From: Dictyoglomus sp. NZ13-RE01
GTDB taxonomy: Bacteria > Dictyoglomota > Dictyoglomia > Dictyoglomales > Dictyoglomaceae
Direction of reading: 5' to 3'
DNA: 32,555 nt
Assembly: GCA_002878375.1 (NCBI GenBank)
Contig: NIRF01000016.1
Span: forward strand, 1 to 32,555
Shown: positions 16,712 to 23,304 of the stretch, piece by piece
Layout of the letters: every line of letters starts with the position of its first letter
How positions within the stretch are numbered: the stretch's first letter is position 1
Notes under the pieces: generated by a model
Told to the model about the DNA's origin: nothing
The model's database searches: none
What the model saw: the letters and a program-made list of their open reading frames with translations, nothing else
Made by a program: the position numbers and the translations under genes

Positions 16712-17353
16712 TTAGAATTTTCTTATATGCTCCACAGGAATATTATGACTTCTAAAAAGCTCATTAATAGTCACTAAATCATCACTTTGTACACGGACAA
16801 CTAAATATCCGTAATCTTCACTATCCGAAGGGAAAGTTACTAAACTTAGTATATTTATTCCCTTCTCCCATAAAATATTTACTATTTTTGCAATCTCCCC
16901 AGGCACATTTTTAATCCTTAGTGTATACCTTAATCCCTTCTCTCCAGCCCCCAACATATCAATGAAAGCCTTAAAAAGGTCTGTTTCGGTTATTATGCCT
17001 ACTACCTCTCCCTTCTCTAATACTGGAAGAGCACTTATTTTATTTTCTCTCATAATCAATGCCGCCTCTTCAATAGGTGCATCAGCGTCTATAGTTATAG
17101 GATTGGGTGTCATAACATCCTTCACTTTCAGTTGTTCTAACAAATAATTTAACTCAAAAATACTTAAGGAGGTTGCCTGTGAAGGAGAAGCAGACCTTAA
17201 GTCCCTTTCCGTAACTATACCCACAAGCTTCCCTTTTTCTATCACCAATAATCTCCTTACTTGGAATCTCTGCATGGTTTTCCATGCTTCCAATATGGAG
17301 GTATTAGGAGAAACAAAAATTGGATTTTTTGTCATTCTCATTCTAACTAACAT
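16712..17353 (-). CDS. CBS-CBS-ACT domain protein (AcuB-like)
   Basis: A 213-residue regulatory protein: CBS domain 1 (about 1-60, MTKNPIFVSPN, GIVTERDL), CBS domain 2 (about 77-135, VMTPNPITIDADAP, GIITETDLFKAF) and an ACT domain (about 142-213, LRIKNVPGEIAKIVNILWEKGINILS). CBS pairs usually bind adenine nucleotides and ACT domains bind amino acids. No catalytic domain is present. An upstream in-frame start at 17404 lies inside livF; the ATG at 17353 has a GGGAGG site and begins the first CBS domain, so it is preferred. Only 4 bp separate it from livF, so it is the last gene of the liv operon. It may sense branched-chain amino acids, but that is inference. Confidence 0.85.
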   Translation of the reverse strand: MLVRMRMTKNPIFVSPNTSILEAWKTMQRFQVRRLLVIEKGKLVGIVTERDLRSASPSQATSLSIFELNYLLEQLKVKDVMTPNPITIDADAPIEEAALIMRENKISALPVLEKGEVVGIITETDLFKAFIDMLGAGEKGLRYTLRIKNVPGEIAKIVNILWEKGINILSLVTFPSDSEDYGYLVVRVQSDDLVTINELFRSHNIPVEHIRKF

Positions 17354-17357
17354 AAAT

Positions 17358-18062
17358 TTACCCTCCCAGATATGCCTTTCGAATCTCCTCGTTTTTAGAT
17401 ACAATCTCTGTTGGTCCGGACATAATTATTCTTCCAGTTTCCAAAACATAAACCCGATGAGCTATTTGAAAAGCCATATTTGCATTTTGCTCCACTAAAA
17501 GTAATGTCTTCCCTTCGTTATTTATCTCTTTTAAAACCTTAAAAATTTCTTGTACAAGTAGAGGGGCAAGTCCCATTGATGGTTCATCCAGTAAGAGCAA
17601 TCTTGCATCTGACATTAAGGCACGACCGATTGCAAGCATCTGTTGTTCCCCTCCACTTAATGTTCCTGCCAATTGTTTAGATCTTTCTTTCAGTCTTGGG
17701 AAAAGAGAAAAAACAAACTCCAAATTTTTCTTTATTTTGTTTCTATCATTGCAAAGATAAGCACCTAACTCGAGATTTTCAAAAACAGTTAAATTTGCAA
17801 AAACCCTTCTTCCCTCAGGAACATGTGCAATGCCAAGACCTGCAACTTTATGAGGAGGAAGCTTCTTTAAATTTATTTCATAAAAATAAATGTCACCCCT
17901 TGCAATAGGGACCAAACGAGAAATTGCCCTTAAAGTAGTTGACTTTCCAGCACCATTTGCCCCTATTAGAGAGACTATCTCTCCTTCTTTGACTTCAAAA
18001 TCTATTCCTTGTAAGGCTCTAATTCCCCCATAGTAAACATGAAGATCTTTAACTGATAACAC
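17358..18062 (-). CDS. livF: Branched-chain amino acid ABC transporter, ATPase LivF
   Basis: A 234-residue ABC ATPase. Walker A is GANGAGKST, the signature LSGGEQQ, and Walker B LLLLDEPS followed by the LivF-typical MGLAP. The start is set at the GTG at 18062 (VLSVKDLHVYYGG), with an AAGGAGG site 6 bp upstream. The ATG 30 bp further upstream (18092) lacks a site and would add an atypical N-terminus. The gene overlaps livG by 14 bp. It pairs with LivG to power the permease LivHM. Confidence 0.94.
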   Translation of the reverse strand: MLSVKDLHVYYGGIRALQGIDFEVKEGEIVSLIGANGAGKSTTLRAISRLVPIARGDIYFYEINLKKLPPHKVAGLGIAHVPEGRRVFANLTVFENLELGAYLCNDRNKIKKNLEFVFSLFPRLKERSKQLAGTLSGGEQQMLAIGRALMSDARLLLLDEPSMGLAPLLVQEIFKVLKEINNEGKTLLLVEQNANMAFQIAHRVYVLETGRIIMSGPTEIVSKNEEIRKAYLGG

Positions 18063-18828
18063 TTTCTTCCTCCTTACCCAAATAAGCCTCAATAACTCTT
18101 GGATTATTTTTTATTTCCTCAGGAGTTCCTTCTGCAATCTTCATACCATAGTCAAGGACAATGATTCTTTCACAAATCCCCATAACTACATCCATATGGT
18201 GTTCAATAAGGATAATAGTCAAATTGAACTTATCTCTTATCTGTAGAATAAGATTTGCTAATTCTTTTGACTCATGAGGATTCATGCCTGCAGCCGGCTC
18301 ATCTAAAAGTAAAAGAGTTGGATTCGTTGCCATAGCTCTTGCAATTTCCAATCTTCTCTGATCACCATAAGGTAAGTTTTGGGATATTTCGTCCTTTCTA
18401 TCATAAAGGTGGAAAAACTTTAGAAGTTCAATTGCTTTTTCCTCTTGCTCTTCCTCTGCCTTATATACCTTTTTATTTCTAAGTATAACATCAAAAACAC
18501 TGGCATTATATACTTTATGCATAGCTATTTTTACATTATCAAGAACAGAAAGCTGTTTAAAGAGGCGTGGATTTTGAAAAGTTCTGGCAATCCCCAAGCG
18601 AGTAATCTGATAAGGCTTTAAATTTTCTATATTTTTTCCTTTAAAAATTATCTCACCATGCAAGGGGGAATAAAAGCCTGTAATTAGATTAAAAACTGTA
18701 GTTTTTCCTGCACCATTGGGACCTATAATTCCCAATATCTCATTTTCTTCTACATGAAAATCCAACTCTGAAACTGCCATTAATCCGCCAAAGGCACAAG
18801 ATAAATTTTTCACCTCTAACACTTTCAT
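18049..18828 (-). CDS. livG: Branched-chain amino acid ABC transporter, ATPase LivG
   Basis: A 259-residue ABC ATPase. Walker A is GPNGAGKTT, the LivG-type signature region is LPYGDQRRLEIARA, and Walker B LLLLDEPAAGMNP carries the family's AAGMNP. The C-terminus (GTPEEIKNNPRVIEAYLG) is also typical of LivG. The ATG overlaps the livM stop as ATGA, and the 3' end overlaps livF. Confidence 0.95.
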   Translation of the reverse strand: MKVLEVKNLSCAFGGLMAVSELDFHVEENEILGIIGPNGAGKTTVFNLITGFYSPLHGEIIFKGKNIENLKPYQITRLGIARTFQNPRLFKQLSVLDNVKIAMHKVYNASVFDVILRNKKVYKAEEEQEEKAIELLKFFHLYDRKDEISQNLPYGDQRRLEIARAMATNPTLLLLDEPAAGMNPHESKELANLILQIRDKFNLTIILIEHHMDVVMGICERIIVLDYGMKIAEGTPEEIKNNPRVIEAYLGKEEESVIS

Positions 18829-19808
18829 GATCTATCCACCTTTGGATTTATAAATCTTTTGAAGATTGACAAAGATATTTCCCTGCCCCCTAAAAGCCCT
18901 TGAGGTCTAAGGAGCATAAGAAGAATGAGAATAATAGAATAAATCACTAATCTAAGATATGTAAATCCTCTTAAGGCTTCTGGTAGAATGGTTAATATAA
19001 ATGCCCCCAATATTGCTCCAGAGATACTTCCTAAACCCCCAAGAACAATCATGAGTAAAACTTCAACGGACCTAAAGAAGGTGAAGCTACTAGGATGAAG
19101 CATCATTAAATAATGAGCGAAAAGTCCACCCGCGATTCCTGCAAAGAATGCACCAATTACAAAAGCCAAAACCTTATAAAAAGTAGTGTTAATTCCCATG
19201 GTTTCAGAAGCTATCTCGTCTTCTCTTATTGAAATAATAGCTCTCCCATGAGAGGAGTTTATTAAATTCCTTATAACTAAATAACAAACAATAAACCAGA
19301 AAATGATCCATGATAGATTAGTCCTTTGAGGTATCCCAGGAAAACCACGTGGTCCACCTACAACATCCAAGTTTAAAATTGCAACCCTTACTATCTCTCC
19401 AAAACCTAATGTTGCAATTGCAAGATAATCTCCCCTAAGTCTCAATGTAGGAATACCAACCAAAAGTCCTAAAATTCCAGCTACCAATCCTCCTACCAAA
19501 AGGAAAATAAAAAATTCAACGATTTGAGCAACATTTGTTGGTAGAAAATTGAGAAAAGCAAGAAGTTTTTCTCCTTGGTAAACACTTAAAGCAGCACTAA
19601 AATAACCTCCAACGGCCATGAAACCTGCGTGTCCAATAGAAAATTGTCCTGCAAAACCATTTATCAAATTAAGACTCATTGCAAGAATACTATTAATCCC
19701 AAAGAATATCAATAATTGATAATAATAGGGATTAATTCCTTGGGCTTGAGTGCCAAGCAAAATCAAAAAAATGCTTATTATTAATGTAATCAAATAATTC
19801 CTTCTCAT
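18825..19808 (-). CDS. livM: Branched-chain amino acid ABC transporter, permease LivM
   Basis: A 327-residue polytopic inner-membrane permease with about nine or ten hydrophobic segments. Family markers are NGFAGQFSIGHAGFMAVGGY near residue 50 and the LivM motif TLRLRGDYLAIATLGFGEI near 121. The C-terminal RPQGLLGGRE is also typical. It overlaps livH by one base (TAATG) and livG by four. Confidence 0.95.
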   Translation of the reverse strand: MRRNYLITLIISIFLILLGTQAQGINPYYYQLLIFFGINSILAMSLNLINGFAGQFSIGHAGFMAVGGYFSAALSVYQGEKLLAFLNFLPTNVAQIVEFFIFLLVGGLVAGILGLLVGIPTLRLRGDYLAIATLGFGEIVRVAILNLDVVGGPRGFPGIPQRTNLSWIIFWFIVCYLVIRNLINSSHGRAIISIREDEIASETMGINTTFYKVLAFVIGAFFAGIAGGLFAHYLMMLHPSSFTFFRSVEVLLMIVLGGLGSISGAILGAFILTILPEALRGFTYLRLVIYSIILILLMLLRPQGLLGGREISLSIFKRFINPKVDRS

Positions 19809-20686
19809 TATACCTTTTCCCTCATATACTTTCCTAATATTCCTGATGGTCTAACTAATAATATTAATATGAGAACAATAAAAGCGACAGCATCCCTTAT
19901 TGTAGAAGATATAAAGGCGGAAACTAAAACTTCTGCAATTCCAAGAATATATCCACCAATCATTGCTCCTGGAATTATCCCAATTCCCCCAAGAACTGCA
20001 GCCACAAAAGCCTTTAACCCAGGCATTACACCCATATATGGTTCTATTTTGTTGAAATACAATCCTACTAAGACTCCTCCTGCTGCAGCAAGGGATGAAC
20101 CAATTGCAAAGGTCAAAGCTATTATTTTATCTATGTCGATACCCATCATTAAAGCAGTCTCTTTATCAAAAGAGACCGCTCTCATAGCTTTACCTACTTT
20201 GGTCTTTAAAACTATAAACTGCAATATAAACATAAGAAAAACAGAAACAGCGATAATAATAATCTGCCTATTAGTAAAAACTATGTTTCCTACAAAATAA
20301 ACTTCCACAGGAATTTTTTGAGGAAAGGGTCTCGGAGATGCTCCCACCCATAAAACCATAAGATTTTCTAAAAGAAATGAAACTCCTATAGCAGTGATCA
20401 AAAGTGATATCCTTGGAGCTAATCTTAATGGTCTATAGGCAAATCTTTCAATTAATATTCCTAATATGGCGGATCCAGCCATTGCAAAGATAAGTCCCAT
20501 AGGGAAAGATAAATTCCAATATCCCAAAGCAAAGTAACCCAAAAAGGCGCCTACCATGTATATATCCCCGTGGGCAAAGTTTATCAACCTCAAAATACCA
20601 TAAACCATGGTATAGCCCAAAGCAATTAGGGCATATATACTTCCTAAGGATAGTCCATTTATTATTTGCTGTAATATATTCTCCAT
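19808..20686 (-). CDS. livH: Branched-chain amino acid ABC transporter, permease LivH
   Basis: A 292-residue polytopic permease. The start QQIINGLSLGSIYALIALGYTMVYGILRLINFAHGD is characteristic of LivH, as is GGIGIIPGAMIGG in the C-terminal half. RPSGILG lies near the end. It is separated from livK by 79 bp containing a strong terminator, so less livHMGF than livK mRNA is expected. The start has an AAAGGA site. Confidence 0.95.
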   Translation of the reverse strand: MENILQQIINGLSLGSIYALIALGYTMVYGILRLINFAHGDIYMVGAFLGYFALGYWNLSFPMGLIFAMAGSAILGILIERFAYRPLRLAPRISLLITAIGVSFLLENLMVLWVGASPRPFPQKIPVEVYFVGNIVFTNRQIIIIAVSVFLMFILQFIVLKTKVGKAMRAVSFDKETALMMGIDIDKIIALTFAIGSSLAAAGGVLVGLYFNKIEPYMGVMPGLKAFVAAVLGGIGIIPGAMIGGYILGIAEVLVSAFISSTIRDAVAFIVLILILLVRPSGILGKYMREKV

Positions 20687-20732: not shown

Positions 20733-20760
20733 TTTAGGAGGGGGTAAACCCCCTCCTAAA
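20733..20760 (-). terminator. Intrinsic terminator between livK and livH
   Basis: A perfect 12-bp stem (20733-20744 with 20749-20760) closes a TTTA tetraloop in the minus sense. The base carries five G-C pairs next to the loop, and TTTTT follows the stem. It starts 5 bp after the livK stop. As no clear promoter lies between it and livH, it probably trims most transcripts after livK while allowing some read-through, giving excess binding protein. Confidence 0.8.
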
Positions 20761-20765
20761 AAATT

Positions 20766-21896
20766 TTATGGTTTTACAGTTGCTTTATATACCTGTTTTC
20801 CACCTTTAATCTCAATGATCACAGCACTCTTTATAGGATTTCTATTTTTATCAAAGACCATTGATCCAGTTACTCCAGTAAATATCTTTGTTCTTGCTAA
20901 TGCATCTCTAATCTTGGTAGGATCAGTGCTTTGTGCTCTCTTAATAGCATCCACTAATAACATAGCAGCATCATAAGAAAGAGCAGCTAAAGCATCTGGA
21001 GTTTCTTTAAATCTCTCCTTATAATTCTTTACGAATAATTTAACCTTAGGATCTGTGGATTCGGGACTATAATGGTTACTAAAGACACAACCTTCTGCTG
21101 CTTTTCCTGCTGTCTCAACCAACTTAGGAGAATCCCATCCATCTCCACCACCAAAAGGAACAGTAATGCCAAGTTCTCTTGCTTGAAGTAAAATAGGTCC
21201 AATATCTGAATAATATCCAGGTAGATAGACAAATTCAGGATTTGCTGCTTTAATCTTTGTTAACTGAGCCCTAAAATCAGAATCTCCCTCAGAGTAATAT
21301 TCTTCTGCTACAATTTTACCACCAAGCTTTGTAAAGGATTCCTTAAAGAATTGAGCCAAGCCTTTACTGTAATCACTGGTTACTGCCACAAACATTGCAG
21401 CAGTTTTCTTATTCATATTTTTATAAACATAATTTGCCATAACAGTACCTTGGAAATCATCAATGAAGCAAGCTCTAAATATGTAATCTCCAACTAAGGT
21501 AACCTTAGGATTTGTAGATGTAGGTGTAATCATAATAACCTTTGCCGCTTGACAAATAGGAGCAAGAACTAAACTCATAGAACTTGCAACTTCCCCAATA
21601 ATAGCTATTACCTTATCTCTTTCAATAAGTTTCTTTGCTGCATTAGCTACTTCCTCTGCTTTATACTGATCATCCTCTAAGATTAACTCTATTTTTTGTC
21701 CCAAAACTCCACCCTTTGCATTTACCTCATCAAAAGCCATCTTTACACCATTAGCAGAAGAGATTCCGAAGGTAGCAATGGGACCTGTAATAGGGAATAT
21801 AGCGCCAACCTTAATAGTTCCAGCAGCCTGAATAGGTAACATCAATAATGAGAGAAGGAGAGCAATTGAAAAAACAACTCTCAGTAAGCCTTTCAT
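20766..21896 (-). CDS. livK: Branched-chain amino acid-binding protein LivK
   Basis: A 376-residue periplasmic binding protein of the Leu/Ile/Val family. A cleavable Sec signal peptide of about 24 residues ends ...PIQAAG, followed by the mature start TIKVGAIFPITGPIATFG. NGVKMAFDEVNAKGGVLG and DDQYKAEEVANAAKKLI are typical of the family. There is no lipobox Cys, so the protein is soluble rather than lipid-anchored, which suggests a periplasm behind an outer layer. The ribosome site GGAGGTGATC is a perfect 10-base match to the 16S tail, so high expression is likely. The ligand may be Leu/Ile/Val or another amide or amino acid; this family is broad. Confidence 0.93.
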   Translation of the reverse strand: MKGLLRVVFSIALLLSLLMLPIQAAGTIKVGAIFPITGPIATFGISSANGVKMAFDEVNAKGGVLGQKIELILEDDQYKAEEVANAAKKLIERDKVIAIIGEVASSMSLVLAPICQAAKVIMITPTSTNPKVTLVGDYIFRACFIDDFQGTVMANYVYKNMNKKTAAMFVAVTSDYSKGLAQFFKESFTKLGGKIVAEEYYSEGDSDFRAQLTKIKAANPEFVYLPGYYSDIGPILLQARELGITVPFGGGDGWDSPKLVETAGKAAEGCVFSNHYSPESTDPKVKLFVKNYKERFKETPDALAALSYDAAMLLVDAIKRAQSTDPTKIRDALARTKIFTGVTGSMVFDKNRNPIKSAVIIEIKGGKQVYKATVKP

Positions 21897-21921
21897 CTGA
21901 TCACCTCCAAAAATTTTTTAA

Positions 21922-21966
21922 TAAAAAAAGGGATGTCCTGCTATACAGAACATCCCTGTTCTTATT
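21922..21966 (-). promoter_or_regulatory. livK leader with terminator and alternative hairpin (possible attenuator)
   Basis: In the minus sense a 12-bp stem (21957-21946 with 21940-21929, one G-U pair) closes a 5-base loop and is followed by six or seven T's, a strong intrinsic terminator. It ends only about 25 nt before the livK ATG, so any livK transcript must pass through it. The 5' arm can also form AGAACA-GGGA-TGTTCT with sequence just upstream (21962-21947), which would exclude the terminator stem. It also serves as the terminator of asnS. Regulation by attenuation is inferred. Confidence 0.6.
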
Positions 21967-21972
21967 TTCTGA

Positions 21973-22001
21973 AGTATATATTTATTGTCTTATAATGTCA
22001 A
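21973..22001 (-). promoter_or_regulatory. Near-consensus sigma70 promoter upstream of livK
   Basis: In the minus sense a perfect TTGACA (22001-21996), a 17-bp spacer and TATACT (21978-21973). The expected transcript start is near 21966. The -35 lies 1 bp after the asnS stop codon, upstream of the terminator at 21929-21957. Confidence 0.85.
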
Positions 22002-22002
22002 G

Positions 22003-23304
22003 TTAAGGATAAATCCTATAAATTTGTCTTGCAAAGGGAATAGCTTCTCTTACATGTTTTAAGCCACAAATCCATGCTACAGTCCTCTCAATACCAAGTC
22101 CAAAACCAGAATGAGGCACAGATCCATATCTTCGTAGGTCTATATACCATTCCAAAGGCTCCCTTTGAAGATTATATTCTTTTATTTTCTCTTCAAGTAA
22201 ATTCAGATCGTGGATTCTCTGGCTTCCCCCAATGATTTCTCCGTATCCTTCTGGAGCAAGCATATCATCGTTTAAAACCTCTTCAGGGTTATCAGGATCA
22301 GGTTGCATGTAAAAAGCCTTTATACGTGCAGGATAATGATGTACGAAAACAGGTTTATCAAACTCCTGAGAAATTACTGTCTCCTCATCACCCCCAAAAT
22401 CATCTCCATAACTGGCTGGCACGCCTTTCCTATTCAAAAGTTCTATAGCCTCTTTATATGTGATCCTTGGAAAAGGTGGAACTATTTTCTCTAATGGTTT
22501 AATATCTCTTTCTAAGATTTCTAATTCCTTGCTTCTTTTATCCAAGACTCTTTGGACAATATAGCTCACTAATTCCTCTTGCAATCTCATATTATCTTCC
22601 CAATCCCAATAAGCCATTTCAGGCTCTACCATCCAAAACTCTGTTAAGTGCCTCCTTGTCTTAGATTTTTCAGCTCTAAAAGCAGGTCCAAAACAGTATA
22701 CCTTACCCAAAGCCATACATGCAGCTTCCATGTATAACTGTCCACTTTGAGACAAATAAGCCTTTCCTAAATCGAAATAATCTAATTCAAAAAGAGTAGT
22801 CGTTCCCTCACATGAGGAGGGAGTCAAAATAGGAGCATCCACTAAAACAAATCCTCTACTATCTAAAAAATCTCTAATTGCTTTTATTATTTCACTTCTT
22901 ATTCTCAAAATTGCTTGCTGTTTTCGTGATCTTAACCATAAATGTCTATTTTCCATTAAAAATTCTATGGAATGCTCTTTTTTCTGTATAGGATAATCGT
23001 AGGCAGGAGAAACCAAATTGACTTCTTTTAAATGTATTTCAAAGCCTCCAGGTGCCCTCTTCTCCTCTCTTAATTTTCCTCTCACAATAATGGAAGATTC
23101 TAAAGGTATTTTCTCTATCCTCTCTAAATCCTCCTTTGAAAAACTATTTAAATCCGCAATACCCTGAAGATATCCTGTGCCATCTCTAATTATCAAAAAA
23201 ACCACTTTTCCACTGGATCTTTTATTAAATAACCAACCTCTGATCTCAACATCCTCAATATTCAATTTTGGAATATCCTCAATATAAACCCATTTATATT
23301 CCAT
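22003..23304 (-). CDS. asnS: Asparaginyl-tRNA synthetase
   Basis: A 433-residue class IIb synthetase that charges tRNA(Asn). An OB-fold anticodon-binding domain (about 15-105, VEIRGWLFNKR) is followed by the catalytic core with motif 2 (FRAEKSKTRRHLTEFWMVEPE) and motif 3 (GFGLGIERTVAW). The insertion DDFGGDEE and the C-terminal GGSQRIHDL point to AsnRS rather than AspRS. The start has an AGGAGG site. It lies 13 bp after mtaD and is the last gene of its operon, followed by the terminator at 21929-21957. Confidence 0.93.
   Translation of the reverse strand: MEYKWVYIEDIPKLNIEDVEIRGWLFNKRSSGKVVFLIIRDGTGYLQGIADLNSFSKEDLERIEKIPLESSIIVRGKLREEKRAPGGFEIHLKEVNLVSPAYDYPIQKKEHSIEFLMENRHLWLRSRKQQAILRIRSEIIKAIRDFLDSRGFVLVDAPILTPSSCEGTTTLFELDYFDLGKAYLSQSGQLYMEAACMALGKVYCFGPAFRAEKSKTRRHLTEFWMVEPEMAYWDWEDNMRLQEELVSYIVQRVLDKRSKELEILERDIKPLEKIVPPFPRITYKEAIELLNRKGVPASYGDDFGGDEETVISQEFDKPVFVHHYPARIKAFYMQPDPDNPEEVLNDDMLAPEGYGEIIGGSQRIHDLNLLEEKIKEYNLQREPLEWYIDLRRYGSVPHSGFGLGIERTVAWICGLKHVREAIPFARQIYRIYP

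Follow-up and report, generated by a model that had tools for sequence, protein, structure and literature searches.

The stretch of DNA analysed here (the window; 32,555 nt of Dictyoglomus sp. NZ13-RE01, contig NIRF01000016.1) carries on its minus strand, in this order, asnS, livK, livH, livM, livG, livF and a gene for a CBS-CBS-ACT-like protein (Table 1). Upstream of livK lies a compact leader with a near-consensus promoter (TTGACA-N17-TATACT; 11 of 12 consensus bases), a perfect dyad (AGAACAGGGATGTTCT) that begins 10 nt beyond the −10 element, an intrinsic terminator and a Shine-Dalgarno sequence. A preliminary description of this DNA had called the promoter perfect; the positions of TTGACA, the 17-nt spacer and TATACT hold, but with TATACT as its −10 element the promoter is near-perfect only. 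The terminator comprises 13 pairs and a T-run and incorporates the last 11 bases of the dyad, and the 3′ arm of the dyad (TGTTCT) is also the 5′ arm of the terminator. Because they share this arm, the dyad hairpin and the terminator would be mutually exclusive.

Table 1. Features of the livK leader, the liv operon and the adjoining asnS gene (positions within the window).
Feature	Position	Strand	Basis or remark
−35 element TTGACA of the livK promoter	21996..22001	−	sequence; 1 nt past asnS stop codon; TTGACAT invariant in 7/7 genomes
−10 element TATACT	21973..21978	−	17-nt spacer from −35; TATACTT invariant in 7/7 genomes
Predicted livK transcription start	21965..21967	−	inferred from promoter spacing, 6–8 nt past −10
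Invariant dyad AGAACA-GGGA-TGTTCT, candidate protein-binding element or antiterminator hairpin	21947..21962	−	16/16 bases identical, 7 genomes
Intrinsic terminator stem-loop AGGGATGTTCTGTATAGCAGGACATCCCT	21929..21957	−	sequence and folding; −19.6 kcal/mol at 37 °C
T-run (U-tract) of the livK leader terminator	21923..21928	−	sequence
Shine-Dalgarno GGAGG of livK	21904..21908	−	sequence; GGAGGTGA invariant in 7 genomes
livK-type periplasmic binding protein gene (Peripla_BP_6)	20766..21896	−	
Hairpin between livK and livH	20733..20760	−	same place in all 7 genomes, sequence differs
livH-type permease	19808..20686	−	
livM-type permease	18825..19808	−	
livG-type ATPase	18049..18828	−	
livF-type ATPase	17358..18092	−	
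CBS-CBS-ACT-like protein gene, directly after livF	16712..17404	−	position kept in six genomes whose contig reaches the gene
asnS, upstream gene in this genome, outside the cassette	22003..23304	−	other upstream gene in G001 and G002

With transcription predicted to start near 21966, the terminator hairpin begins about 9 nt into the RNA, the terminated transcript would be about 43–45 nt long, and the distance from start to ATG would be about 70 nt. The leader of roughly 70 nt given in the preliminary description is thus correct as a start-to-ATG distance but not as the size of the terminated product. Between the end of the U-tract and the livK ATG at 21896 there are about 25 nt, as had been stated, and the leader, whose folding had been proposed as a check, folds far better than shuffled sequences (z = −5.9). 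A hidden promoter of note between terminator and gene was looked for and not found, and none is conserved there: the best candidates reach 7–9 of 12 consensus bases and differ in each genome. The sequence evidence thus far supports the view that livK must be transcribed through the terminator, as was originally proposed.

We compared this leader across seven Dictyoglomota genomes from two genera, and the order of promoter, dyad, terminator and Shine-Dalgarno sequence before livK was kept in all of them. The terminator between promoter and gene and the proposed alternative stem that overlaps its 5′ arm were thus present in every genome; the relatives that might have retained the promoter and lost the stem were not seen among the seven. 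A leader covariance model (R1)—built on a MAFFT alignment that is imperfect in the terminator 3′ arm, and hence used for finding copies and not as structural evidence—hit every Dictyoglomota genome exactly once and had no hit in 34 other genomes. The promoter spacer differs in sequence between genomes (43% mean pairwise identity, one invariant column; six genomes) and is 17 nt long in six genomes and 18 in one, and the gap from −10 element to dyad goes down to 6 nt; in none of the seven, however, does the dyad extend outside the predicted transcript. Of the 1775 genes called in the complete relative G003, 10 have a sigma70-like promoter together with a leader terminator; among these the livK promoter is second-best, and a promoter of at least 11/12 with a leader terminator is found only at livK and at one cation-efflux-type gene. 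The livK terminators are near the median strength of G003 gene-end terminators. Judged from these comparisons, the livK leader cassette is more than a chance arrangement.

Since asnS ends directly ahead of the promoter in this genome, and is the upstream gene in five of the seven, the terminator might instead be that of asnS. In the two remaining genomes (G001 and G002), livK has other upstream genes (a metallo-beta-lactamase-like one and an unrelated one), while asnS lies elsewhere, ahead of a hypA-like gene, and is followed by no visible GC-rich hairpin; the cassette is still found before livK. An asnS terminator is ruled out on these grounds, and the cassette belongs to livK because promoter, dyad and terminator stay before it despite a different upstream gene.

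The dyad is constrained more tightly than termination would require. The terminator partners of its positions G12, T13, T14 and T16 vary between genomes (C/T, A/G, A/G/bulge and A/G, respectively), C5 lacks a terminator partner in four genomes and pairs with G in the other three, and yet the 16-mer is invariant in all seven although the terminator 3′ arm drifts. As this arm varies while AGAACA and TGTTCT do not, the pattern indicates that the dyad is an element with a function of its own, be it as an RNA hairpin or as a DNA site. The suggested comparison of leaders in relatives found both hairpins kept (7/7) but the dyad without covariation: all 12 arm bases are invariant in the seven genomes, with no G-U variant. 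Missing covariation is not decisive here, because a shared arm that must pair with two partners would have little freedom to change.

Stability bears on what the dyad can do as RNA. The AGAACA/UGUUCU hairpin (6 bp) is predicted at −4.8 kcal/mol at 37 °C and at about 0 at 72 °C, a typical growth temperature of Dictyoglomus, where the terminator hairpin retains −6 to −9 kcal/mol (energies at 72 °C are extrapolated and approximate). A dyad hairpin of about 0 kcal/mol means that an RNA mechanism would need a bound protein, and the free-standing antiterminator/terminator RNA switch of the preliminary description is not supported on this count. Its attenuation reading is partly supported, i.e., it seems right in outline, and a switch made of RNA only is unlikely.

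We considered whether a known regulator or leader type could account for the element. Part of the leader (GAACAGGGAUGU) resembles a CsrA/RsmE binding hairpin, matching the CsrA SELEX consensus RUACARGGAUGU (PMC4347634) at 11 of 12 positions with GGA in the hairpin loop; despite this site, CsrA regulation is ruled out, as csrA is absent from all seven Dictyoglomota genomes in a search that was positive in Thermotoga maritima, B. subtilis and E. coli. A BglG/LicT system acting on a RAT (ribonucleic antiterminator) is likewise ruled out by the lack of a CAT_RBD gene in the five Dictyoglomota searched. Regulation by Lrp is rejected because none of five Dictyoglomota tested yielded a full-length Lrp/AsnC gene (no match in four, and in G001 only a 79-residue frame with an effector domain). 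The preliminary description had found neither a known riboswitch nor a leader peptide, and we agree on both counts. Riboswitches and T-boxes of Rfam gave no match at gathering score, the best relaxed matches (E of at least 0.3) being far below it. The AUG inside GGGAUG opens frames of 11–18 codons in each genome, but leader-peptide attenuation is ruled out, since stop position, frame, length and residues are not conserved and the frames have neither a Shine-Dalgarno sequence nor a run of Leu/Ile/Val codons. A shared regulon is ruled out by the exact dyad (AGAACANNNNTGTTCT), which is single-copy in each of the five Dictyoglomota genomes scanned.

The account that we tentatively favour treats the livK leader as a compact, promoter-proximal attenuator, in which a dedicated protein holds the RNA of the dyad and so lets polymerase reach livK. 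RNA polymerase leaving the consensus promoter would meet the intrinsic terminator within about 45 nt, and by default many transcripts would presumably stop as RNAs of about 43–45 nt. The invariant 16-mer at the very start of the RNA (AGAACAGGGAUGUUCU) would be the binding site of the putative protein, which, by holding the 16-mer as a hairpin, would occupy the 5′ arm of the terminator and allow read-through into livK and on to livHMGF. We infer that read-through of the livK terminator is regulated, that the signal is amino-acid status, and that the dedicated protein acts on the nascent RNA (the option we favour) or on DNA, with the dyad serving as an operator near +1. At the level of sequence, promoter, terminator, the overlap of the latter with the dyad, conservation and linkage to livK speak for attenuation, and the RNA option draws on a dyad that is wholly transcribed in all seven genomes and overlaps the terminator; the lack of dyad covariation, which DNA recognition would explain equally well, the instability of the dyad hairpin at 72 °C and the lack of known RNA-binding antiterminators (CAT_RBD in five Dictyoglomota, CsrA in all seven) speak against a protein acting on RNA. 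We hold it rather doubtful that the regulator is a new Dictyoglomota RNA-binding antiterminator, unrelated in sequence to BglG or CsrA, that senses amino-acid status, holds a 16-nt hairpin at the 5′ end above 70 °C and prevents termination within 45 nt.

The main competitor, which we consider somewhat unlikely, is a DNA operator: the AGAACA-N4-TGTTCT palindrome, at about +4 to +19, would bind a repressor that blocks initiation, and the overlapping terminator would be a constitutive damper. The inverted repeat at the predicted start is indeed perfect (6+4+6); its half-sites are spaced by 10 bp, or one helical turn, and its overlap with the start is typical of repressor sites. The absence of both G-U and compensatory changes from its 12 invariant arm bases, and the melting of the RNA hairpin at 72 °C, are as a DNA site would have them, and pairing of the central GGGA with the terminator's UCCC accounts for the invariance of these four bases. 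Yet such an operator has no second exact copy in the five genomes scanned and no convincing weaker one in the intergenic DNA of G003 (a GGAACA-N4-TGTTCC at 1806310, tried as a second dyad, proved an ordinary gene-end hairpin), the locus is without a transcription factor gene, and the operator reading does not account for the terminator that all seven genomes retain between promoter and gene.

That the terminator is unregulated, i.e., a fixed partial damper or an insulator against read-through, with the dyad kept for reasons of promoter function or early elongation, we regard as improbable. Its ordinary strength would suit this role, as would the upstream genes, which lie on the same strand as livK in all seven genomes with no other terminator seen between. 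An insulator, however, ought to precede the promoter rather than follow it, and although the A-rich AGAACA can pair with the U-tract, such pairing leaves unexplained the invariant G2 and C5 (the latter unpaired in four of seven genomes) and the shared arm. Least probable by far, in our judgement, is a small riboswitch or kinetic antiterminator that works with no protein: the stems are mutually exclusive, the single copy is tied to one operon and no protein has been identified, but about 45 nt leaves no room for a separate aptamer, nothing in Rfam matches at either the gathering or the relaxed threshold, and at 72 °C the dyad hairpin would have to compete at about 0 kcal/mol with a terminator of −6 to −9.

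To our knowledge, gene control in Dictyoglomota, which are heat-loving bacteria, is almost undescribed. Premature termination was reportedly found in 1992 in a gene for branched-chain amino acid transport of E. coli. The RAT of the BglG/SacY/LicT proteins is a likeness in mechanism, being a short, protein-stabilised RNA hairpin over the 5′ arm of a terminator; it measures about 30 nt and has internal loops, whereas the livK dyad is a perfect 6-bp stem. More generally, premature terminators before ABC-transporter operons whose sensor is unknown have been described as a class, the "ABC-leaders" (Naville and Gautheret, 2010; PMC2965389), and the same paper allows for RNA-binding proteins that target palindromic RNA. 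Common to these and to the livK leader are a 5′ terminator just before an ABC-transporter operon, conservation among relatives and a possible alternative antiterminator; promoter, terminator and livK follow one another on one strand, no further promoter being conserved ahead of the gene, and the arrangement is conserved with the gene in all seven genomes, also where another gene lies upstream. None of the five ABC-leaders figured there is from a liv operon or from Dictyoglomota, and the livK leader differs in being much shorter and in having a sequence-invariant alternative stem. The rimP-leader (PMC2965389), too, has a terminator stem of highly conserved sequence, interpreted in that paper as a motif recognised by a protein, but it precedes another gene and has no visible antiterminator in place of the overlapping dyad of livK. 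Leader-peptide attenuation of ilv/leu genes (PMC6123439) likewise puts a terminator ahead of branched-chain amino acid genes, and differs by the ORF, Shine-Dalgarno sequence and Leu/Ile/Val codon run that have no conserved counterpart in the livK leader. The livK leader therefore appears to be a lineage-specific case of the ABC-leaders, in which the type of control is known and the example is new. Being short, invariant and present in a single copy, and with read-through of one terminator as a clear readout, the element could be used to pull out its regulator, and it illustrates how a short antiterminator could function at temperatures too high for an unaided 6-bp hairpin.

Several further observations concern the operon and similar leaders elsewhere. 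No gene for a regulator or transcription factor lies within the conserved liv locus; the CBS-CBS protein, whose C-terminal match to an ACT domain is weak, is by position only a possible amino-acid sensor for the operon. The hairpin between livK and livH is GC-rich (12 bp) and in several of the seven genomes has a TATAAT-like motif behind it. Terminator-like hairpins thus stand at both ends of livK, an arrangement that may set its expression above that of the permease genes or mark a second promoter. In our own scan of 172 convergent gene ends in G003, a hairpin with U-tract was found at only about 17%, which may mean that this lineage has few intrinsic terminators. The cation-efflux-type gene noted above (L133:8818-9930; G003 1728818-1729930, minus strand) combines a consensus promoter with a downstream leader terminator about 23 nt before its ATG, with no Rfam match; this arrangement is kept in G004, while the leader in G000 differs (two hairpins and a T-run), and it is possibly a second attenuator. 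Finally, eleven other distant livK relatives have no comparable hairpin before the gene, while in the distant, AT-rich genome G028 a terminator-like hairpin (AGGACAGCCTAACAAGGTTGTCCT) with a T-run lies about 45 nt before a livK-type gene (L016, minus strand), possibly as an independent case.
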